From an uncultured Adlercreutzia sp. (GTDB lineage Bacteria > Actinomycetota > Coriobacteriia > Coriobacteriales > Eggerthellaceae): 45,030 bases of DNA. The translations under genes were made by a program, and so were the position numbers. Where the stretch lies: the NCBI GenBank assembly GCA_947426355.1, contig CANEDU010000002.1:1-45030 (forward strand), written 5' to 3'. Shown here one piece after another: positions 1 through 12,294 of the stretch; the stretch's first letter is position 1, and each line of letters opens with the position of its first letter. The notes under the pieces are model-generated. The model did no database searches. It saw nothing but the letters and a program-made list of their open reading frames with translations, and was not told the origin of the DNA.

Positions 1-558
1 ACAGTTGACTCCTTCCAAGGGATGGAATTTGATGTCGTGTTTCTGTCGATGGTCAGGACTCTTCCGGGGAACTACAAGGGGCCGCTGGGGTCGAGGGCTG
101 CCGCGGCGCCGCGCAAGGCAGAGCCCGCTTCTGAACTAGTGCGGTCTGTCCGGGAGGTACAGCCTGCTATAGAAGAGCAATCGAAGAAGCGCTCGCTTTT
201 CTCGAGTATTAGAGACGCCCTGTTCTCAAGCGGCCAGAAAGAGGAGAGGCATCAGCAAGAGGCTGCAGCCGGAATCGGCTTGGAAGAGGCCATGGCCCCA
301 TATTTGGAGAAGAAAAGAGAAGCTGAAGAGACCAAGATAATCGATGCTGAGGAGCAGAGACAGGCTCAGCGCCTGTTCGGCCACCTCTGCCTGTACAACC
401 GACTTAACGTTTCCATGAGCCGGCAGAAGAGGCTGCTTGTGGTTGCTGGCGACTCGAGGCTGCTCAGCGCCGAACTGGCGAGCAAATACATCCCTGGGCT
501 GGTTGATTTCTACGAGACCTGTCTGAAGGAGGGGGTGATTCTGCAATGCCAACGATAA
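1..558 (+). CDS. SF1 (UPF1/DNA2-like) helicase, C-terminal part, 5' truncated by window
   Basis: The reading frame is open from base 1, so the start lies outside the window; 185 residues are visible. Residues 2-16 (VDSFQGMEFDVVFLS) match the motif V region of UPF1/DNA2-type superfamily 1 helicases, and residues 133-141 (NRLNVSMSR) match motif VI with its arginine. In this family the protein would be an ATP-driven RNA or DNA translocase. Motifs V and VI are separated here by more than 100 residues rich in Glu, Lys and Gln (about 25-130), longer than usual and probably partly coiled coil. The 3' end overlaps the next start by 13 bp, so the two are translationally coupled and belong to the defence-like operon that follows. 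The helicase assignment is secure; the nucleic acid substrate cannot be read from this part. Confidence 0.85.
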   Translation, partial: TVDSFQGMEFDVVFLSMVRTLPGNYKGPLGSRAAAAPRKAEPASELVRSVREVQPAIEEQSKKRSLFSSIRDALFSSGQKEERHQQEAAAGIGLEEAMAPYLEKKREAEETKIIDAEEQRQAQRLFGHLCLYNRLNVSMSRQKRLLVVAGDSRLLSAELASKYIPGLVDFYETCLKEGVILQCQR

Positions 559-2489
559 AGATGCTTGACCTCCACATATCATTCGCGGACGATGCGCATT
601 TGACGCGTCCCAGAACCCTCGCGTGGCCAGTCCTCGCTTACAGGGTGACACTACCTGATACAGCCGAAGGTGGCGATGATGCCCTCAATCCCTTCGAGAG
701 GCTTCTGCTGACTTTGCTTGAGATTGACGGGCCCGTCTCAGAAGGGCGACTCGCGAAAGAGACGTGCATTCCGAAAGATTTCGTGAAGGGGGTTCTTCTT
801 CGGCTGCAGGACAACGGCTATATCGACGATCGGAACTCGATTGTAAAGAAGTCTGTTTCGAGGCAAAGCCGCACCAACTTTAAACCAGCAATGATCTTTC
901 GTGAGAACGTTGGCGGAAAGGTTCTTCCATATGTTCTCTACGATACGAAGCCAGAAATCAAGCTGGTGGAGACTGGCCGCGATATCAAGCAGATGCACTG
1001 GTCGGAGCGGAGATTCGAGCCCGTCTCTGCGCAAGAAGTAGTCGAAGCGGTCAAGGAGCAGAAGCGTCATGAACGTGTATACGGTGACCGCTCAATTGTC
1101 CCGGAGGTAAGCTCGGTTACGGTCAGCGAGACAGGTGAACGCTATTTCCTCGAATGCCCCATCGGCATGAGATCAACTGATGGCGAGTTTCGGATTGGGA
1201 ACCCGTTTGGGAAGGGCTACTCCCTATTGCTCGAGGGCGTTTTCATGGACGAGCTCGCGACTGACGAAAACCTAGAAGCCTGGATTACCGAATGGAGAAA
1301 GAATCTCGTTTTCGAAAAAGGTCCGGACAAATCTAATATTGCGCTCGAGCCGTACGAAACTGATAGGTGCAGGCATCTTTATCCGCATCTATTACCTTTC
1401 CTCAAGCCCAACTACTATGGGATACGTACTATCGAGCAACTCTATTCTTCAATCGAATGGACGCTTTTCTACTCGAACGAACGGCTTGGGTCCAGAAGCG
1501 CCTTGAATCTGCTCAGCGTTTCCAACCCCTCAGATACACCCTATCTGGTTAAGCGTGCCGCTGAGGCCGTCGGGGTGGAGACGCCAGACAATGGTTTCCT
1601 GCGAATCAACCAGCTCTCTATCGACAGCTACAGAGACGGCGTACCAGAGATGCCGACGGCTCTATCCATAGCGCTTCTCCAAGCCCAGTCTGACGAGATG
1701 CACCCGCTTCGTCTATTCGCAAAAGAGCATCCCGATCTTGCCATCCGGCTATACCAGATGAAGAAGGAGCGCGACATTAGATCTCACGGGAAAGGCCGGG
1801 GCGCCCAAAACGAGCAGAGCGGGAAGAGCGAAACTTTTATGAAGGAGCTCGTCTCGGCGCTCCTGCCGGGCATCCGCTTTTCTAATGAAGGTTCGGCAAG
1901 AGAATCCAAGTCAGACGCTTTGATTGATGCTCGCTTTGAGGCGAGGACCTCTCTTCTTGATTTGTTTGGATACACCGCATTCAACACAAAGCTGCTATCG
2001 ATCACTCAGGAGCGGCTCGTGGATGCGGAGAGCTTTTGGATGAGTTACGAAGAAGGGGAAGATGCGCTGTCGTTCGTCGGAGATCTCTATGCTGCTCTGC
2101 AAAGCGAACTCTCAAACAGGACTGAAACCTCAACGATTAGGGCAAAGAACGACCGAGAGCTGGCCGCTGAGATAGAGAAAAGGGCAAAAACGCTCAAGGT
2201 AGACCCGCTGCCCAAATCACTCAGCACCGTGAGGCCGAACAATATTCGGAAGGCGCTCCAGGGGCTAGACGAGACCACGCTCGGCGGTGTCGCCATCGCA
2301 TTCATGATGAGCTGTGATGACGAGGAGATGAGCAGGATCCTTGAACAAGACAGGCCTTTCTTCTCGGATATTAGCGAAGTCATTGCCGCACGCGGCCATC
2401 TCAACGAAGCCAGACGGTTCACTAAGAAGGAAGTCGACAGATACAGGAAAGTTGCGTACAGGGCAATCCGCACGCTAATGGAGAACTAG
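546..2489 (+). CDS. Unknown 647-aa winged-helix protein of the defence-like operon
   Basis: I do not recognise this family. The stretch from about residue 45 to 105 (beginning NPFERLLLTLLEIDGPVSEG) has the helix-turn-helix pattern of a winged-helix domain. A beta-rich stretch follows (about 195-235, around ECPIGMRSTDGEFRIGNPFG). The rest is mostly helical and charged, and it ends in a basic helix (RRFTKKEVDRYRKVAYRAIR). No membrane segment, signal peptide or obvious catalytic motif is visible. The start at 546 lies inside the helicase 3' end, with GGAGG about a dozen bases upstream. The gap to the next gene is only 11 bp. By position it is an obligatory partner of the helicase and the McrB-like motor; a nucleic-acid recognition or adaptor role is inference. 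Confidence 0.8.
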   Translation: MPTIKMLDLHISFADDAHLTRPRTLAWPVLAYRVTLPDTAEGGDDALNPFERLLLTLLEIDGPVSEGRLAKETCIPKDFVKGVLLRLQDNGYIDDRNSIVKKSVSRQSRTNFKPAMIFRENVGGKVLPYVLYDTKPEIKLVETGRDIKQMHWSERRFEPVSAQEVVEAVKEQKRHERVYGDRSIVPEVSSVTVSETGERYFLECPIGMRSTDGEFRIGNPFGKGYSLLLEGVFMDELATDENLEAWITEWRKNLVFEKGPDKSNIALEPYETDRCRHLYPHLLPFLKPNYYGIRTIEQLYSSIEWTLFYSNERLGSRSALNLLSVSNPSDTPYLVKRAAEAVGVETPDNGFLRINQLSIDSYRDGVPEMPTALSIALLQAQSDEMHPLRLFAKEHPDLAIRLYQMKKERDIRSHGKGRGAQNEQSGKSETFMKELVSALLPGIRFSNEGSARESKSDALIDARFEARTSLLDLFGYTAFNTKLLSITQERLVDAESFWMSYEEGEDALSFVGDLYAALQSELSNRTETSTIRAKNDRELAAEIEKRAKTLKVDPLPKSLSTVRPNNIRKALQGLDETTLGGVAIAFMMSCDDEEMSRILEQDRPFFSDISEVIAARGHLNEARRFTKKEVDRYRKVAYRAIRTLMEN

Positions 2490-2500
2490 ATGGAGGAACA

Positions 2501-4990
2501 ATGAGCGAAGAACACAATGAAATCAGGGAAGAGCAGGCTTCAATGCCGGACGCCTCCATCGAAACGGGCGATGAAGCAACCAAGGAACAGTGCGACGCAA
2601 AAGCAGACTACGAAGCATTGAAAGACAAGGCGCAGGCCACGATGGACAAAGCCAAGAGCATGCTGGCCGATGCGGGGGAAAGAACCTCCGAGCTTGATAA
2701 AAGAAGCAAGGCCATCGAGGCCGAGCGCTCGAAGCTCGCCGACAAAAGAACGCAGCTAGAGACGAGGGCAAGGGAACTGAGCGAGCGCGAGCTTCGCGTA
2801 AAGCAAGCTGAACTCGATGCGCAGAAAAGTATCGCCGAGCAGAGAGCGAAGGCTGAGGAGGACTTCCTGGCTCAGCGACAGACCTGCGAGTCAGAAATCG
2901 CCGCGAAGCGAGCCGAGGCCATCGCCGCTCTGGAGAAGGAAATGAGCGAGCTTCGCGCAAAGCGACTCGGCGAGATTGTCGAGGCTGAGGAGCCAGAGCG
3001 TTGCCGCATCAGGATCGAGATTGCTCGTGAGCGAGAAACCTGGGACGAGGAGAAAACGAGAAGCGAGGCGGCCCTTGCTTCCGAGCGCGAGGAACTCACG
3101 AAAATGCGTGGAATCCTGTCCGCTCAGATGGACGAGATTAATCGTCGCAACGCGGAATTTCAGGATCGGGAACGCGACCTCGAAGACCAGGAAGAACGCA
3201 TGCGGGCTCGGGCGAAGAGGAGGAGCGAGAGGCTCGACGAGGAGGCCGAACAGCTCGCCTCCGAATATAAAGCAACCGTTGATGCCGAGAAGGCGGCAAT
3301 GGCTAACGAGAACAGCAGACTCCGCAGCAGCTTGCGGGCGCAGGAAGAGCTCCTTGCGGCTTTCAAGCAGCTTGAGGTCCAGCTCGGCGGACAGAGCCCC
3401 GAGGCAGTGCTCTTGAGTTTGAACAGCAAGTCTGAAGAAATCAGGACGCTGAGAGAGGAGCTCGCATCGCGTCCCACCGACGAGCTAAAGGATCGATACG
3501 AGGCAATAGCTAGGGCGATGCAATCCAAAGACGCGCGAATCGATGACCTCGAGCGCAAAGTAGCGGCCAGTGCTTCGGCGGCAACGGAAGTCGCCGATTT
3601 AAGGCGGCAAATACAGGAGGCGAAAGCCCAGAGTGAAACAAGCGATCGCCTGGCGAAAATACACGAAACCGCAGCAAAACAGGTAACCGCAGAGCTGGAG
3701 AAGCTCCAAGCCGATTTCGACCGGCTCTACGGCACCCCCGCCGGGGAAAACGAACGCAGGGAAGAGATAGAGATGCCCTATATCCTCAGGGAGAATGCCA
3801 ATCTTCCCACCACGCCTCCCGACCTGAACGAGATCGAGTGGCTTGAGGGCGTCTACAACGCGTGCGAGGATTACGGCCTCCACTTCAATAAACGGCTCCT
3901 CTACGCCTTTCATACCGCGCTCAAGACCGCCGAATGGGCGCCACTCACGGTTCTCGCGGGTGTGTCTGGCACCGGCAAATCCGAACTACCCCGGCTCTAC
4001 TCGCATTTCGGCGGCCTATACTTCGCACCCGTCTCGGTACAGCCGAACTGGGATAGCCAGGAATCCATGCTGGGATTCTTCAACTCCATCGACAATCGCT
4101 TTGATGCCCAGCCTGTTCTGAATTTCCTCGCTCAAACTCAAAAAGCTTGGGAGCCTGATGCAGACGGCTATCCTGGACTTGCCGATGCAGTCAGCTTGAT
4201 TCTGCTCGACGAAATGAACCTTGCCCACCCAGAGCTCTATTTCTCCGAGTTCCTGAGCAAACTCGAGCTCCGTCGCGGAGTCCGAGCAGACGCCACGCCG
4301 ATGCTCGACGTTAAGATCGGATCGGGCATGAAGCCGTACAAGCTGCCACTTGGCCGCAATGTTTTATGGGTGGGTACCATGAATCAGGACGAGACGACTA
4401 AGTCGCTTTCCGACAAGGTGCTTGACCGTTCCATCGTTATGCACTTCCCACGCCCTACCGAGTTGAAGCGCCGGCGAACGCTGAAGCCGCTTAACGAGGA
4501 GAACAGAGGGGCGATCCTGAGCAAGCGCACCTGGGAGAAATGGTGTCAAATGCGGTCGACGTTCGGGAATGCCGAAATTGCCCCGTACAAGGAGTTCATC
4601 GAGAACATGAACGCATCACTCGGTGTCGCCGGCAGAGCCATCGGGCATCGTGTATGGCAATCAGTCGAATACTATATGTCGAACCATCCGCTTGTCCTCG
4701 CCGCAGGCGAGGACAAGCGGGCAAAAATCGAGGCAATGCACGTCGCGTTTGAGGATCAGCTCGTGCAGAAGGTCATGCCGAAGCTCCGCGGCATCGATAC
4801 GCGCGGCAAGAGCAAGACGGAATGCCTTGATAGGATTAGGGAACAAATCGCCACAGGAATAGACGGCGAGGGCTTTGACCTTATCGAAGACTTCGATTTG
4901 TCCTGCGAGCTCGGATACGGTCAGTTCATCTGGCAATCTGCGTACTATCTCAAAGAAGATGCTGGCGAGACTACGCAGGATGAATCATGA
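2501..4990 (+). CDS. Coiled-coil McrB-type AAA+ NTPase
   Basis: Residues about 30-410 are an almost unbroken run of Glu/Lys/Arg/Ala heptads, a very long coiled coil. A spacer follows, then a motor domain with Walker A GVSGTGKS (487-494), Walker B LILLDEMN (D570) and GTMNQDE (from about 625), the place of the McrB-family MNxxDR-type signature, with a downstream LDRS arginine. McrB relatives are GTP- or ATP-driven hexameric motors that move nucleic acid for a partner nuclease in type IV restriction. The coiled-coil fusion recalls the CoCoNuT group, in which McrB homologues carry long coiled coils beside UPF1-like helicases. A GGAGGAACA ribosome site precedes ATG 2501. The stop codon overlaps the next start (ATGA), indicating coupling. 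The motor domain is certain; the substrate and a GTP or ATP preference are not visible. Confidence 0.88.
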   Translation: MSEEHNEIREEQASMPDASIETGDEATKEQCDAKADYEALKDKAQATMDKAKSMLADAGERTSELDKRSKAIEAERSKLADKRTQLETRARELSERELRVKQAELDAQKSIAEQRAKAEEDFLAQRQTCESEIAAKRAEAIAALEKEMSELRAKRLGEIVEAEEPERCRIRIEIARERETWDEEKTRSEAALASEREELTKMRGILSAQMDEINRRNAEFQDRERDLEDQEERMRARAKRRSERLDEEAEQLASEYKATVDAEKAAMANENSRLRSSLRAQEELLAAFKQLEVQLGGQSPEAVLLSLNSKSEEIRTLREELASRPTDELKDRYEAIARAMQSKDARIDDLERKVAASASAATEVADLRRQIQEAKAQSETSDRLAKIHETAAKQVTAELEKLQADFDRLYGTPAGENERREEIEMPYILRENANLPTTPPDLNEIEWLEGVYNACEDYGLHFNKRLLYAFHTALKTAEWAPLTVLAGVSGTGKSELPRLYSHFGGLYFAPVSVQPNWDSQESMLGFFNSIDNRFDAQPVLNFLAQTQKAWEPDADGYPGLADAVSLILLDEMNLAHPELYFSEFLSKLELRRGVRADATPMLDVKIGSGMKPYKLPLGRNVLWVGTMNQDETTKSLSDKVLDRSIVMHFPRPTELKRRRTLKPLNEENRGAILSKRTWEKWCQMRSTFGNAEIAPYKEFIENMNASLGVAGRAIGHRVWQSVEYYMSNHPLVLAAGEDKRAKIEAMHVAFEDQLVQKVMPKLRGIDTRGKSKTECLDRIREQIATGIDGEGFDLIEDFDLSCELGYGQFIWQSAYYLKEDAGETTQDES

Positions 4991-7900
4991 ACCTAGAGGA
5001 ACTGTATAGTTCATATGCAACGAGCCAAGAGGCCAAGGAGCTGCTACAACAATCCCATTGGTTCGCCTCATTCGCTGACTTCGACCCGAAAACCGGCGAT
5101 ACATTGCCCATGCCCCTTAGCCGCGTTCTGAAGCGTATGGCGGAAAGGAAGCCCTGTCCATTCGTGAAAGATCGTCTCTGGCTGCTGATGGAGCACAGCC
5201 GAGAGTCTGTGCGCCGGTTGATGAAAGTATTGAGCGAAGAGCCGCGGAGGGAATCGGCTTACCTCCCGATAAGGGAGGTGCGAGAGCTTGATACAGCGAG
5301 CTTCATCGCCCTCTCGCGCCGCCCCGGTCGAAACATTCGAGAGAAGCTTGCTGACAAACCGTACATGCAAGCCGTACGGCACTATCAATCCATCGATGTG
5401 CCCGAGAACCAGCTCCTGAAAGCGTTTCTGATGCAGCTTGCTGACGCGATGGAACTAAGAAAAAGTTATTTGAAAGACAAGGAGGTCGACGACTACCTCC
5501 AGTCGATATATAGGTGGCTTAATGACGGGGAGATTCAAGACATATCTCGTTGGGAGAACCTTGCGCCCAATAACGCCCTCCTCTCGCACCGGGATTATCG
5601 CAAGGTGTGGAATTCGTGGCGTTGGCTCCAATCGATAAGCGACGATCTTGACCGCGACTTGAGTCAATTGGCCCAAAGACGGTCCGTTAAGAGACGATGG
5701 GACGGCTATACCGACGCTTACAAAGGCGGGCAGACGGCTTTCGCAGACATGCCCGTGCTTGTGGACTACAACGCTTTCTCCGTTGTGCCATGGGACACGA
5801 CGATGCCGACGCAAAAGCGAATGGGAATTAGGCGCAGCGAAGAGTTCCTCGTTTCGAGAGAGCCTGTGTGCGTCGATTTGACCCAGCTCCAGCCCCGGTA
5901 CGCGACGCCGACCACCGCAGGACAACTCGACGAGAGCTTCTTCTGGCAGCGGTGGTGCGACGAGCAAAGCACGGTTGACATGCCTCTCTTCAATTCGGAT
6001 GCTGTCTATGCGCATCCGGATGCCGTAACTGTTACCGGAAGTGACCTGTTCTTCTTCAGGGGCAATCAGCCTGAAATCCTGAGTCAGGCCGCCCGTTCGT
6101 TCACGCTGCATCTAAAGCGACACTTCAAGAATGAGCATCTCATCTGGCTCATGCCCGATAGTGTGAGTGAATTCGAGGTTGAGCTCGTGAGGCGAAATCT
6201 AAACGCCGCATTTCTGAGCTCCGAGCCTCTGCCTTGCTCCGTCGCTGCGGTTTTCAAACACATCGGCTATGATCGAATCGCGTACGATGGGTTCCGCGTT
6301 GCCGTTGTTGAGAGAATCAATGGTAAGGCATATCTGACTGAGATGGTGGCCAGATACGACAAGGAGCTTTCGGTGGCTCTCCCGGAAACGCGCGGGTTCA
6401 TTTGGGAGAAAGGGGCGTCTGAGCTCATCAGCTCGGACGTCGAGATTGAAAACGTACATGGCCGCATTCCCATGCTGCTTCAAGATGGCGCTTGGACGAA
6501 TAACAACAATCCCTACGGTGTTGCTCATGCCGAGAGTGAAGACGTCGTCATGGGGTACGAGGGGTACGACTGCGCGATTTGGCTTAACGGCAGACCAGTC
6601 GAGGGAGGCATCAAGCTGTACCAGATGCAGCGGGGGGTGCCTGAAATCCCATTGTGGCGCAATCATATACCAGAGCTCATGACCAAGGTCATGATGGACG
6701 GGTACTATCAGCCGTTCTTCTTCGTTGGCAAGGACGTTACAGTCCAGCCGGTTCGCGACAAGGCCATCGCCATTCCCGTCCCCCAGGAATTCACGCTTCC
6801 GAAAGGAAGGAAAACTTACAGGCTTCCGTTGCTTCAAGGGTCGAATGAGGAAGCCATGGAGTATGAAGCCAAGCTCGTTTCGAAGGACTTCCCTTATGAC
6901 GAGGACGTGAAATGCCGGTTGAAAATGACTTATACATATGGCGCAGATGACCCGTACCATCTGGTTTTCATTCCGCTAAACCCAGAGTATCGCCAGATTA
7001 ACGTCATCTGGCAGCTAAAAGAGGAAGTCGAGATTGACGACGCTCCTGGACCAGTATACCCCGAGCCGCTCACTTGGGATCAGCTCCAAAAGAATTACAG
7101 TCCGAAAAAGAAGAAGAACACCGATCTGCTTGAGTGGTGCATCTCTAGTGCAGATAGGACTCTGAAGTACCTTCGAGGATACGAGAGCAAGCCTCTCTCG
7201 CTCAAGGTTACCACCGATTGGAAAACGAATGCCAAAGGAAGGCAGTTCGCTTTTGGTGAGACGTCATCCGGTGATAGCGTATATATCTCCGAATTTGCAT
7301 TCGATAAGGGATTCTATAAGTCGAAAGTCCATCCGGGTGCGACCCTATCTGCCCTCCTCGATACATCTCAGCTAGGTAATTACTCTGCTTTGAGAGCCGC
7401 CTCTAGTGCTTCCGACCTGGCCGTCGGTATGTGCATCTCCATAAGAAAGTCCATGTATGTACCGTATATTACCGTATGGGCAGGGGGTCATACCACAAGC
7501 GACCCTGGATGCCCCTTAGAATTCCGAACGAGAATCAAGGCTACAATTGCCTCGATAGAACAAAGCCTAACGATTCAGCACCTGCCCGACAACGTTAAAT
7601 CCGAGCTCTATATGCTCCTATCTTTCGTTGCCGAAGATCTCAACGCGTCTCAATCGCAGAAGCTCGTTTCCGGGTTCCGAAATGGGCTTCTACGTGAAAA
7701 AGGTGTTGGCTTTGCGATAGGGTCGCTCTCGCAAGATTGGCAGATTAGTCTGCTTAACGAATGCCTCTCGAAGCCCGCGAAACAGATGCTCACCATCCTT
7801 GCTCACGCAGCATGGCGTAACAAGTATTTTATTCTCAGGCTTTCTCCGGATATCGTTTCTCGCATTGCCAACCAGCTTATTTCTGAGCAAACGATGCTGC

Positions 7901-8244
7901 TCAAGCAGACGAAGTGGAACGAGAACAACGTTGAGTATTTGACCAGATGCCTCGAACTGCTCCTTGGGCTCTTGAGGAGTCGAGACTCTGAAGACGCGCT
8001 CTGCAAGCAGTTATTGCAGCCGAGTGAGAAAATCACGAAAGACTTTGCAGGGGTAATTGAAGAGGTTATTGTTCGTTTCGCAAAGAACCCTATTGAACTG
8101 AAATCAAGGGTTTCTCTTGATTTGGAGGGGAAAGCACAGGACGACAAAACCCCCGATCTGTTATATGCACTGCGAATGTATTTAACGGGCAACGATGCCG
8201 CAAACGCAATCCGCGTTACTGGCATTATCGAAGATAGCGAATAG
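4987..8244 (+). CDS. 1085-aa partner of the McrB-like motor, DUF2357/McrC-like N-terminus possible
   Basis: This is the last gene of the operon, overlapping the motor gene by 4 bp. About residues 130-160 (VPENQLLKAFLMQLADAMEL) resemble the ENR-F motif region of DUF2357, the N-terminal domain often found on McrC partners. Around residues 375-460 (LIWLMPDS..., LPCSVAAVFKH, DGFRVAVVERINGKAYLTEM) there is a pattern like the middle and phosphate-2 segments of an actin/Hsp70-fold protein; this is a weak eye-level match. A basic patch (KKKKN) lies near 706, and the last 250 residues are helical. I see no PD-(D/E)xK nuclease motif, which a true McrC should have. It may be a structural or sensor subunit, or a diverged McrC whose nuclease sits elsewhere. 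The reading frame is certain; the function is unknown. Confidence 0.75.
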   Translation: MNLEELYSSYATSQEAKELLQQSHWFASFADFDPKTGDTLPMPLSRVLKRMAERKPCPFVKDRLWLLMEHSRESVRRLMKVLSEEPRRESAYLPIREVRELDTASFIALSRRPGRNIREKLADKPYMQAVRHYQSIDVPENQLLKAFLMQLADAMELRKSYLKDKEVDDYLQSIYRWLNDGEIQDISRWENLAPNNALLSHRDYRKVWNSWRWLQSISDDLDRDLSQLAQRRSVKRRWDGYTDAYKGGQTAFADMPVLVDYNAFSVVPWDTTMPTQKRMGIRRSEEFLVSREPVCVDLTQLQPRYATPTTAGQLDESFFWQRWCDEQSTVDMPLFNSDAVYAHPDAVTVTGSDLFFFRGNQPEILSQAARSFTLHLKRHFKNEHLIWLMPDSVSEFEVELVRRNLNAAFLSSEPLPCSVAAVFKHIGYDRIAYDGFRVAVVERINGKAYLTEMVARYDKELSVALPETRGFIWEKGASELISSDVEIENVHGRIPMLLQDGAWTNNNNPYGVAHAESEDVVMGYEGYDCAIWLNGRPVEGGIKLYQMQRGVPEIPLWRNHIPELMTKVMMDGYYQPFFFVGKDVTVQPVRDKAIAIPVPQEFTLPKGRKTYRLPLLQGSNEEAMEYEAKLVSKDFPYDEDVKCRLKMTYTYGADDPYHLVFIPLNPEYRQINVIWQLKEEVEIDDAPGPVYPEPLTWDQLQKNYSPKKKKNTDLLEWCISSADRTLKYLRGYESKPLSLKVTTDWKTNAKGRQFAFGETSSGDSVYISEFAFDKGFYKSKVHPGATLSALLDTSQLGNYSALRAASSASDLAVGMCISIRKSMYVPYITVWAGGHTTSDPGCPLEFRTRIKATIASIEQSLTIQHLPDNVKSELYMLLSFVAEDLNASQSQKLVSGFRNGLLREKGVGFAIGSLSQDWQISLLNECLSKPAKQMLTILAHAAWRNKYFILRLSPDIVSRIANQLISEQTMLLKQTKWNENNVEYLTRCLELLLGLLRSRDSEDALCKQLLQPSEKITKDFAGVIEEVIVRFAKNPIELKSRVSLDLEGKAQDDKTPDLLYALRMYLTGNDAANAIRVTGIIEDSE

Positions 8245-8276
8245 AGGGGGCGCGGTGAGCGCCCCCTCGCTTGCTA
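8244..8276 (+). terminator. Operon terminator hairpin
   Basis: A perfect 10-bp stem GAGGGGGCGC / GCGCCCCCTC encloses the loop GGTGA directly at the stop codon of the 1085-aa gene. The T-tract after it is weak (GCTTGCTATTTG). It ends the four-gene operon. Confidence 0.8.
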
Positions 8277-9083
8277 TTTGAAGATTAGGGACATTGCACC
8301 TCGGTTCGATACCTGGATTTTCGGGGTATTTTTGCATAAACCTCTGTGGAAGGGAGGATTGCGTGCCGAACGTTGGTGCAGCGGACGTTTCGCAGGCCGA
8401 TTGGTCGCGGCACGAGGGTAGTGTCGCAAACGTTGGTGTAAGCACCTGGAATCTTGTTCGCATTCTAGCTCATCTTTTAGGCGGTCCTCCTTCCGATTGG
8501 GCTGTCGGCGATTACCACTTCTATAACTCTTCTGATATGCTTCTCGGCTGTGCCGTCATGGGAAGGTGCGGGAGCGATGGGTCCTGCAGCAGAGCCTGTC
8601 GTGCGCATCATCGGCGTCGTGATGGCCGACGGGCGCGTCGCCAGGAAGGCAACGTGAGCCCATAGTGTAAAACTACGGTATTCTAGGGATGGTTCGGTCT
8701 CCTCGGACGGCTTGCGGCCGCCCTCGCAGATCGAATCGCTATACCAACAATCGGCGCACTGCCCTCAGGTTTTAAAGCCAGTCTGCAAATAGCTTTCTAT
8801 TCGAAATCGGATATTGAAATAGATCGTTTGTACGCTTGCAAAGCACTCTTCACCGTGGAGACTGCTCTGGGTGTTTGTGGAAGTGGCTCCGGGGCGGTTG
8901 TTCCCGAGGGTATTATGCAAGCACTGCGAGGGGCGAAGAGCCCAATTTCGAGGAATCAGGGGAATTGGGGGAGCGCTATAGAGCAAGTCCCAAGAGAGCC
9001 GATTGAGTGAGCTAGCAAATTTGAGGCCGACCTGGCACTTCGGTTTGACGGGCAAAGATGGCGAGACGTCCCGATATTGGAAA
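8277..9083. other. Gene-free 0.8-kb stretch between defence-like operon and tRNA scar
   Basis: No reading frame here has a ribosome site plus a recognisable product. The composition is mixed, as in decayed mobile-element DNA. Two similar 10-mers (AACGTTGGTG at about 8371 and 8430) occur 60 bp apart. I see no integrase remnant, CRISPR repeats or complete RNA gene. Confidence 0.4.
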
Positions 9084-9131
9084 CGTGGGCTCATAATCCA
9101 AAGGGCGGGGTTCAAATCCCCCCCCCCGCGA
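9084..9131 (+). pseudogene. 3' fragment of a tRNA-Met-like gene (candidate att scar)
   Basis: The stretch GGGCTCATAATCC has the shape of an anticodon arm with loop CTCATAA (anticodon CAT), and GGGGTTCAAATCCCC is a textbook T-arm. No D-arm or matching 5' acceptor strand lies upstream, so only the 3' half is present. The T-arm is followed by a C10 run and GCGA where the acceptor strand should be. Integrases that target tRNA 3' ends leave exactly this arrangement at the far end of the inserted element: a 3' tRNA piece followed by the original downstream DNA, here a clean terminator. The operon to the left would then be element cargo. Confidence 0.6.
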
Positions 9132-9144
9132 TTGCGAAATATCA

Positions 9145-9174
9145 GCCGCCGAGTTCGCTCGGCGGCTTTTTTGT
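9145..9174 (+). terminator. Rho-independent terminator behind the tRNA fragment
   Basis: A perfect 9-bp stem GCCGCCGAG / CTCGGCGGC with a TTCG tetraloop is followed by seven T. This is a textbook intrinsic terminator, probably the original terminator of the tRNA gene whose 3' end lies just upstream. Confidence 0.9.
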
Positions 9175-9268
9175 TAGAGCGTAGGCATTGCGATGGGCTT
9201 GAGGGAGACATTCTGGCCGGGGCTCAGTTGGGCGCAGCAGCACATACCCCTCACTGCAAGGAGCCCTC

Positions 9269-10227
9269 ATGAGCGACATCGAAATCTACGAATCTCCCGA
9301 CGGCGATGTCCGCCTGAACGTGCAGCTCGAAGACGAGACGGTTTGGCTGTCTCTTGACCAAATGGCGCATTTGTTCGGTCGTGACAAGTCGACTGTCTCC
9401 CGTCACCTTAAGAATATCTTTGATGAGAAAGAGCTTGAGCGTGAGACAGTTGTTGCAAAATATGCAACAACTGCGCAAGATGGGAAAGTGTATCAGGTTG
9501 ATCATTACAGCCTCGATGTCATCATCTCAGTGGGCTATCGTGTAAAGTCCCAGCAAGGCGTTCGCTTTCGCCAATGGGCTACGCAAGTTCTGAAAGAGTA
9601 TGCCGTCAAAGGCTTCGCTCTCGATGATCGTCGTCTCAAGGATGGCCGCAGCCGTTATTTCCGCGAGCTGCTCCAGCGCGTGCGCGATATCCCCTTCAGT
9701 GAGCGCAACCTCTATCAGCAAGTCACGGACGTCTATGCGACAGCTATTGACTATGATCCGAAATCCTTTATGACGCGTAAATTCTTCGCCACCGTGCAGA
9801 ACAAGCTTCATTACGCTGTCCATGAGCACATGGCGGCTGAGGTTATTTACGACCGGGTCGACCGTGAAAAGCCGCTTGTGGGCATGACGACATTCGATGG
9901 CGATTACATCGCTAAAGACGACGTGCGCATTGCGAAAACTATCTCACTGAAAAGGAACTGCAAGCGCTCAATCTCCTGGTCGCTCGTTTTCTCGATTTTG
10001 CCGAATTGCAAGCTCTGGAAGAGCGAGCAATGACTATGGCCGAGTGGATTGAAGAGCTTGATTGGGAAATCGTTAGCTCTCGCCGCGCGTTGCTCGAGGG
10101 ACAGGGGACCATCTCCCACAAACAGGCTATCGAAAAAGCCGAGAAAGAGTTCGAAGCCTACCGCGCTCGCGAGATGCGCCAGCTCGAAAGCGACTTCGAC
10201 CGAGCGATTCGACAGCTGGAGGGGTAG
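9269..10227 (+). pseudogene. RhuM family protein, frameshifted
   Basis: The first 222 residues match the RhuM family: an N-terminal DNA-binding part with LSLDQMAHLFGRDKSTVSRH, then KVYQVDHYSLDVIISVGYR and the conserved RFRQWAT. The frame is lost at the A4 run 9935-9938. Adding one base restores NYLTEKELQALNLLVARFLDF and continues to the stop at 10225-10227, giving the normal length of about 320 residues with a helical C-terminus. Ribosome site AAGGAG precedes ATG 9269. RhuM proteins are common on pathogenicity and phage-like islands; their biochemical role is not established. The lesion could be a real single-base deletion or a homopolymer sequencing error. Unshifted translation gives a 254-aa product with an unrelated tail. 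Confidence 0.85.
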
Positions 10228-10911: not shown

Positions 10912-12294
10912 TTACTTTGTGCGATAAACACGGCTAGGACCGTTGCCGTAGGCAACGAGTTTGCCAGCTTCAACAAGGTCGCCGATGGCGCGTTGGGCCG
11001 TTCTGCGCGAGTGTCCTGCCTTCACGAGATCGGAGCTTCGCAGGCCCTTTTCGGTTTCGGCGAGTGACAGCGCAGCGGCTTCAATATCTTCGGGAAGCGT
11101 TACATACGCATACTCGATGGTGCTTGTGGGTGTCGTTGGAACAAAGGCGCGGAAAACCGGCCCTTCTTCCAGCTCCGGGTTAAGGCCAGTGTAGCGACGA
11201 GAGTTCTTGAAGAGCTCGCGCGTCCCGCTTCCCAGCTCTTCAGCCAATCCGATATGCGAGAAGAACGAGGCGATGATGGGGTTTTTCGGGAGCGGGTTGA
11301 AGGTATCGGGTTCCAGGGGCCCGTCAAATGAGGCGCGACTGGCGTTTTCGGTGTGGATGCCCCGTTCATCGATAATGATTTTTGCGGGAAAAGGACTCGT
11401 GAACTCGCGATGTATGAGGCAGTTTACGAGCAGTTCGCGAACGATAGCGTCGCGTGGGCTGACGACGGTGTCTCCCTCCATCGAGAACCGGTCTGGCAAG
11501 TATTTTCGGCAGAAATCTGCGAGCAGGGGGTAAGCTTCCATGAGGTTCGTCGTCACTACGAGACGGTCGTCGTAGCGGTCGGTGTCCTGTATGCGCACGA
11601 GTGCGTCGGTCTTGTATGCGGGGCACAGCGAACGAATGACCTCGTCCTTTCCGAGAACGACCACCGCTGCCAGGTTGAAGCCAATTTTTCCGGTTGTGAA
11701 GTCCTTGCCGAAGAAATTGGCGGATTCGACGAGCTGCTGATTGGTGAGGGCACCCCAGGGATGGTCCTTGCGTTTGGCAATTGCCATGGCTCTGGCTTGC
11801 TCGATGAGGTCTTCCCGCAGATCGTCGAGTGAAACGTGTTCGAAGACGCGCTGCTCGGTGAAAATGCCCTGCTTGCGAATGCAGAGCTCAGCGAGAGGGG
11901 CGCTTCCCCGCACCACCATGTCCGCATCTCCGCGGCGCTCGTACACCTTGCCTTTGTAGCTGTGCATTTGGGGGCTGTTGGGAACGGCAATTTTTATAAC
12001 CTGGCCGTTTTGGAAATCGATATGCTCGAATTCGACAGAAACGGGGATATCGAAAGCGTTTGGGTTGTTAATCACGTTAAGGATATTGCGCGTAATGGGC
12101 AGTACTTGGTTTGCCGCGATGCCGCAGATGTTTCCATTATCTTCAATTCCCAGGAACACGTTTCCACCGAAGCTGTTGGCGAAGGCGCAAATCGTTTCGA
12201 ATACATCGGATTCCGGCTGATTCCCGCAGCGCTTGAATTCGGTATATTCGTCTTCGCCATGGTTGATGATGTCCTTGAGGCGATGCTTGTCCAT
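10912..12294 (-). CDS. AlbA_2 (Schlafen-type) domain regulator / ATP-binding protein
   Basis: A 460-aa protein. Residues 1-130 are an AlbA_2 domain (EDEYTEFKRC, then FANSFGGNVFLGIEDNG). The middle contains DAIVRELLVNCLIHREF (about 275-290) and IASFFSHIGLAEELGSG (about 350), the pattern of the HATPase_c_4-type domain that accompanies AlbA_2. The C-terminus (about 418-458) is a winged-helix segment. The family is annotated as putative DNA-binding transcriptional regulators; some members sit in phage-defence and toxin contexts. The eight-copy repeat array lies immediately upstream of its start, in its probable promoter, so self-regulation is plausible. Confidence 0.85.
   Translation of the reverse strand: MDKHRLKDIINHGEDEYTEFKRCGNQPESDVFETICAFANSFGGNVFLGIEDNGNICGIAANQVLPITRNILNVINNPNAFDIPVSVEFEHIDFQNGQVIKIAVPNSPQMHSYKGKVYERRGDADMVVRGSAPLAELCIRKQGIFTEQRVFEHVSLDDLREDLIEQARAMAIAKRKDHPWGALTNQQLVESANFFGKDFTTGKIGFNLAAVVVLGKDEVIRSLCPAYKTDALVRIQDTDRYDDRLVVTTNLMEAYPLLADFCRKYLPDRFSMEGDTVVSPRDAIVRELLVNCLIHREFTSPFPAKIIIDERGIHTENASRASFDGPLEPDTFNPLPKNPIIASFFSHIGLAEELGSGTRELFKNSRRYTGLNPELEEGPVFRAFVPTTPTSTIEYAYVTLPEDIEAAALSLAETEKGLRSSDLVKAGHSRRTAQRAIGDLVEAGKLVAYGNGPSRVYRTK

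Follow-up and report, generated by a model that had tools for sequence, protein, structure and literature searches.

An Eggerthellaceae operon assigned with high confidence to the Type III-A CoCoNuTs, split over two contigs and predicted to act through a pair of HEPN domains

Among the CoCoNuT relatives of McrBC, the Type III-A systems described by Bell et al. (2024, eLife 13:RP94800; PMC11090510) have a core of CnuH, CnuE, CnuB and CnuCD, often accompanied by a TerY-P set with a duplicated VWA gene. According to the same work, their CnuE joins an elongated winged helix to two HEPN domains, one with an RxxxxH and one with an RxH motif, and their CnuCD is a DUF2357 protein fused to an Hsp70-like nucleotide-binding and substrate-binding unit (NBD/SBD), with HEAT-like repeats, usually a cold-shock domain and no nuclease; Types III-B and III-C encode CnuD as a separate gene and never TerY-P. 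A 2025 preprint classes Druantia I and II as a fourth CoCoNuT group. Here we analyse the window G000:C2:1-45030, a stretch of 45,030 bp from an Adlercreutzia (Eggerthellaceae) genome, which opens with the 3' part of an operon that is very probably a Type III-A CoCoNuT defence operon split over two contigs.

Four plus-strand open reading frames, separated by a 13-bp overlap, an 11-bp gap and a 4-bp overlap, fill the start of the window and end in a hairpin:

1..558, plus strand: 3' end (last 185 codons, 5' end open) of cnuH, UPF1-like superfamily 1 (SF1) helicase
546..2489, plus strand: cnuE, winged helix and two HEPN-like modules, predicted ribonuclease (RNase) effector (647 amino acids, aa)
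2501..4990, plus strand: cnuB, coiled-coil McrB-like GTPase (829 aa)
4987..8244, plus strand: cnuCD, McrC-like N-terminus, Hsp70-like unit, cold-shock domain and putative helical repeats (1085 aa)
8244..8268, plus strand: terminator-like hairpin with a 10-bp GC-rich stem after cnuCD

An initial annotation of the window had described this arrangement and the lower GC content of the operon, and measurement bears it out (54.0% in 1-8244 vs 60.9% in 12301-45030); the helicase motifs V (TVDSFQGME) and VI (NVSMSR), the McrB-type Walker A and B motifs, the MNQD signature and the coiled coil that it listed are likewise present. Terminator-like sites number 4 in the 7900-9400 region vs 1.8 ± 1.2 in shuffles. 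The operon is larger than the four genes then proposed. The first base of the window is base 1 of contig C2 and lies inside cnuH, so the helicase is truncated by the assembly and not by biology. A search of the genome for relatives of the helicase and kinase encoded on the plasmid Caballeronia pSBC2-5, which carries a related locus, located the rest of cnuH (1016 codons) on a second contig of the assembly, C1, close to where that contig stops (C1:49686-52733, L011:16886-19933; C1 ends at 52739), with a kinase gene (STK) immediately before it, preceded by a PP2C gene and two VWA genes. Contigs C1 and C2 combined give the eight-gene order VWA–VWA–PP2C–STK–CnuH–CnuE–CnuB–CnuCD. One homologous helicase aligns through residues 1-1038 to C1 and through residues 1054-1151 to C2; judged against this relative, about 15 residues are unsequenced at the join.

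The adjoining UPF1-like SF1 helicase, a feature of Type II and III CoCoNuTs, is recognised by AAA_11 in the C1 fragment (E=1.7e-28) and by AAA_12 in the window (E=5.8e-9). The AAA_11 match is spread out, residues 470-856 covering 248 profile positions, a sequence match that would be compatible with the helical insertion after Walker A of Types II and III-A. Motifs V and VI (window 31-405) lie 125 residues apart in this CnuH and 108 apart in two other Eggerthellaceae, against 29-50 in 27 other CnuH proteins; the extra length is a lineage-specific insertion. Upstream, the kinase has a C-terminal zinc ribbon (CPDC..CPFC) and completes, with VWA and PP2C, the TerY-P triad, a usual but non-core Type III-A trait. 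The first VWA protein has a complete metal ion-dependent adhesion site (MIDAS) pattern, DxSxS..T..D, and the second is short and without the middle T, matching the published description (PMC11090510).

The predicted effector is CnuE, through its two HEPN ribonuclease domains; homologues of this protein lie directly upstream of CnuB in related loci. Its recognisable parts are:

672..857, plus strand: winged-helix domain, residues 43-104
1770..1787, plus strand: HEPN motif 1, RDIRSH, R409-H414 (RxxxxH)
2391..2399, plus strand: HEPN motif 2, RGH, R616-H618 (the short RxH form of Type III-A)

Pfam, NCBIfam and PADLOC, applied to the single 647-aa protein, gave no identification, and its neighbours and folds were needed. 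With the AlphaFold2 model of CnuE (predicted local distance difference test, pLDDT, 88.3), Foldseek alone returned no match below E=0.001; a second look with VIA-align found the winged helix-turn-helix (HTH), at Z about 10 vs MarR-type and Zalpha domains, and placed residues 462-647 on the HEPN part of RnlA, with Z 10.0 over 133 residues. The winged helix also has a profile match to HTH regulators (E=1.7e-4). Among 67 homologues, the first HEPN motif keeps its R in 59 and its H in all 67, and the second its R in 66 and its H in 65. A winged HTH followed by two HEPN domains, the first with RxxxxH and the second with RxH, is the architecture that defines CnuE of Type III-A, and the apparently missing effector of the operon is thereby settled as a predicted HEPN RNase pair.

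CnuB, which PADLOC matches as PDC-M26A (E=6.9e-28), shares 36-63% identity over the best segment with 80 relatives and contains:

2633..3775, plus strand: coiled-coil region, approximately residues 45-425
3959..3982, plus strand: Walker A, GVSGTGKS
4382..4393, plus strand: NQDE, the NxD(E) GTPase signature, N628-Q-D630-E631

The coiled-coil region is charged and almost without Pro and Gly, and in a sequence-based test its heptad signal is weak, though above chance (33/1000 shuffles scored as high); CoCoNuT GTPases carry such a long coiled coil. The Walker A motif is identical in 77/80 relatives, and Walker B reads LILLDEMN. The form GTMNQDE occurs in 70/80 relatives, a count to be read with GTMNQDE having been one of the two search patterns used for relatives, and GTMNEDE in 7/80. 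The signature is thus NxD, as in CoCoNuTs, and not the NxxD of McrBC. With that Type IV restriction system the operon shares a McrB-type AAA+ GTPase and a McrC-like partner, whereas it has neither a DNA-binding head nor a PD-(D/E)xK nuclease.

The partner, CnuCD, is modelled with a pLDDT of 89.5 and is divided as follows:

5215..5517, plus strand: DUF2357 (McrC N-terminal) match
5854..7020, plus strand: Hsp70-like NBD/SBD, residues 290-678
7189..7401, plus strand: cold-shock-like domain, approximately residues 735-805
7408..8085, plus strand: helical, possibly HEAT-like C-terminal region

DUF2357 is matched by Pfam PF09823 (E=2.3e-4), and a relative is named a DUF2357 protein in RefSeq. The Hsp70-like unit is found by Foldseek as DnaK (E=1.3e-6) and by VIA-align (Z 16.7, 349 residues, root-mean-square deviation 4.7), the cold-shock-like domain by a family profile against CspB-like cold-shock proteins (best E=0.004) and by five strands in the model, and the C-terminal region by consecutive helices in the model at residues 808-1033. 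DUF2357 fused to an Hsp70-like NBD/SBD, with a cold-shock domain, is the combination of Type III-A.

The initial annotation could match the 647-aa and 1085-aa proteins to no subtype and suggested a new variant or a new four-gene system with an effector of no recognised kind; the lack of a Pfam family for the first protein and of a PD-(D/E)xK nuclease in the second speaks for such a system. No such nuclease is seen in CnuCD, so that observation stands, but its standing as an anomaly does not, since a McrC-like partner without PD-(D/E)xK is a known Type III-A trait (PMC11090510). Each component matches a published one in gene order, motif and fold, and the two proteins correspond to CnuE and CnuCD; all four proteins essentially match one named system with high confidence, which refutes the suggestion of a new variant or system and leaves it scarcely credible. 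That annotation correctly tied the operon to McrBC relatives of the CoCoNuT type that may act on RNA. Of the checks then proposed, AlphaFold with Foldseek revealed the DnaK-like unit in CnuCD, with the folds of CnuE seen through VIA-align, and PADLOC recognised CnuB and an MkoA in the helicase and left the 647-aa protein without a match.

That MkoA match raised a Mokosh-like helicase system as a candidate, which we rejected, no Mokosh PLD gene being seen. A different CoCoNuT type is its counterpart within the family: Type II also has CnuH, CnuE, CnuB and TerY-P, but its CnuE has one HEPN motif and not two, its CnuC carries an inactive nuclease domain and a CPxC zinc ribbon, and it has no Hsp70 unit, whereas a scan of the 1085 residues of CnuCD for CxxC motifs found none and the Hsp70-like unit and DUF2357 are here joined in one protein. 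This fusion, together with the presence of TerY-P, also departs from Types III-B and III-C, with their separate CnuD gene and lack of TerY-P. We therefore regard Type II, III-B, III-C or a Mokosh-like system as a highly improbable identity for the operon.

Co-conservation of the genes, another check proposed earlier, proved strong. Scanning a CnuB alignment against 84,980 species genomes gave 80 loci, in Pseudomonadota, Actinomycetota, Planctomycetota, Bacillota and others. Nearly all of them have CnuE immediately before CnuB and CnuCD immediately after it, with CnuH and the TerY-P genes further upstream, contig permitting; CnuE–CnuB–CnuCD are contiguous in about 73 of the 80, and gene junctions fall within -250 to +150 bp in 73/75, 73/76 and 73/78 measurable cases.

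We assign the operon to Type III-A because of its gene order and contiguity, the NxD motif of its coiled-coil GTPase, the RnlA-like HEPN fold and both HEPN motifs of its winged-helix effector, the Hsp70-like unit and cold-shock domain in a nuclease-free DUF2357 protein without CxxC, and the MIDAS pattern of the duplicated VWA proteins; the UPF1-like helicase and the kinase and phosphatase of the TerY-P set are further likenesses. Several points weigh against this assignment. The proposed adjacency of C1 and C2 is based on homology and on the contig ends, with no overlapping sequence. The DUF2357 score of 20.9 bits is slightly below the Pfam cut-off of 23.3, and the HEPN match of CnuE, at Z about 10 in a mostly helical domain, could taken alone reflect a common arrangement. 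About 470 residues of CnuH stand before the helicase core, and the assignment draws on features other than the SPB (SmpB-like) and RTL domains with which CnuH begins in Types II and III-A. Finally, a literature search for experiments or functional data on Type III-A CoCoNuTs found none.

Based on the above comparisons, we consider an RNA-targeting, HEPN-mediated anti-phage response the likely function of the operon and propose how it may work, each step of activity being one that we infer from family knowledge (McrBC, HEPN RNases and TerY-P) and the published hypothesis. The McrC-like N-terminus of CnuCD would stimulate hexamers of CnuB, in a GTP-driven assembly ordered by the coiled coils. 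CnuCD, through its cold-shock and Hsp70-like domains, and CnuH could bind and remodel the target RNA, perhaps ribosome- or transfer-messenger RNA-associated, while CnuH would hold CnuE through the winged helix of the latter. Once released or activated, CnuE may cut RNA with its two HEPN modules, leading to dormancy or abortive infection, and the VWA/PP2C/kinase set might serve as a phosphorylation switch that holds the nuclease off until infection. The operon is compact and almost complete, a Type III-A CoCoNuT from a family of Actinomycetota and of a kind predicted in 2024; a compact copy such as this is a convenient candidate for a first functional test of RNA cutting by CoCoNuTs.

A tree of CnuB places the window together with a Slackia and another Eggerthellaceae genome (95/89), within a larger clade that is mostly Pseudomonadota; the best identity is to an Acetobacter protein. 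The loci of Slackia sp. ZJ119 (L035/L006) and of the Eggerthellaceae metagenome-assembled genome RGIG2516 (L038) have the identical eight-gene layout, but their CnuB is only about 45% identical and both have a convergent gene 3' of cnuCD. This gene lies right next to cnuCD (L006:17978-19831 in Slackia; L038:15754-17694); of the two, that of Slackia has matches to CARF-HEPN (Csx1/Csm6-type) profiles. In L028, L029, L033, L049, L051, L056 and L076, cnuCD is followed by a CARF gene in the same orientation. No CARF effector of either kind was found in a search of the genome studied here, whose assembly is 79.6% complete, so absence is not established.

Compared with described Type III-A systems, the operon lacks an EssC-, SpoVK- or VirB4-like ATPase between its VWA genes, has no CARF gene found beside it and carries a longer insertion between helicase motifs V and VI; these are small differences and do not make a new type. 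We suggest only tentatively that the Eggerthellaceae form of Type III-A is a compact one, with two adjoining VWA genes, no ATPase insert, an extra helicase insertion, and CARF effectors lost or shifted to the 3' side. The core might then by itself both sense infection and respond to it. A double VWA without ATPase that would be unique to the lineage was rejected, as VWA genes adjoin in several proteobacterial loci too.

Eight congeneric genomes lack the operon; congener G183 gave a weak McrB-like match, at 30% identity and to part of the GTPase only, which was not counted as a CoCoNuT. An intact tRNA-Met gene precedes the operon on contig C1 (L011:12872-12949) and brackets it together with a second, decayed copy:

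9087..9368, plus strand: decayed copy of the tRNA-Met 3' end, terminator and rhuM start, 82% identity over 283 columns

Congeners G171 and G174 have an uninterrupted rhuM straight after tRNA-Met, and the operon therefore looks like an insertion at the tRNA-Met site. The best identity to an Acetobacter protein and the absence from eight congeners make transfer likely, and the patchy presence at a tRNA-Met hotspot points to horizontal acquisition. Within the genus, the interval bounded by tRNA-Met and the SLFN/AlbA gene is a hotspot of variable defence content: in sister species it holds TIR and RyR genes, AbiEi/AbiEii, a type I restriction–modification system and a TerY-P-like VWA-kinase-PP2C set. 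The decay of the neighbouring rhuM and of the second tRNA copy, and the failure to find in this genome the CARF effector that stands beside the Slackia copy, would suit a Type III-A system that has decayed or lost its function; the readable operon genes are all full length with intact motifs, and we hold such a relic to be improbable and a Type III-A operon with intact genes to be the better reading.

Of the RhuM-family gene in the window (9269-10033, 254 aa), only the first part of the family is matched, and DNA similarity to an intact 347-aa relative reaches about 10231; the gene is probably frame-disrupted. On the other side of the operon, a zinc ribbon-TIR protein (L011:8928-11093) adjoins an RyR-domain protein (L011:11207-12727) that has no PADLOC match, and similar TIR and RyR genes occur in the sister-species hotspot (L114, L115; RyR also in L118), possibly forming an undescribed defence pair. 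The gene with the SLFN/AlbA_2 domain (10915-12294, minus strand) is well preserved across the genus, at 73-74% identity in three congeners, and a repeat encoding MARLARLWRDYGAI-type peptides lies on its upstream flank, from 12319.

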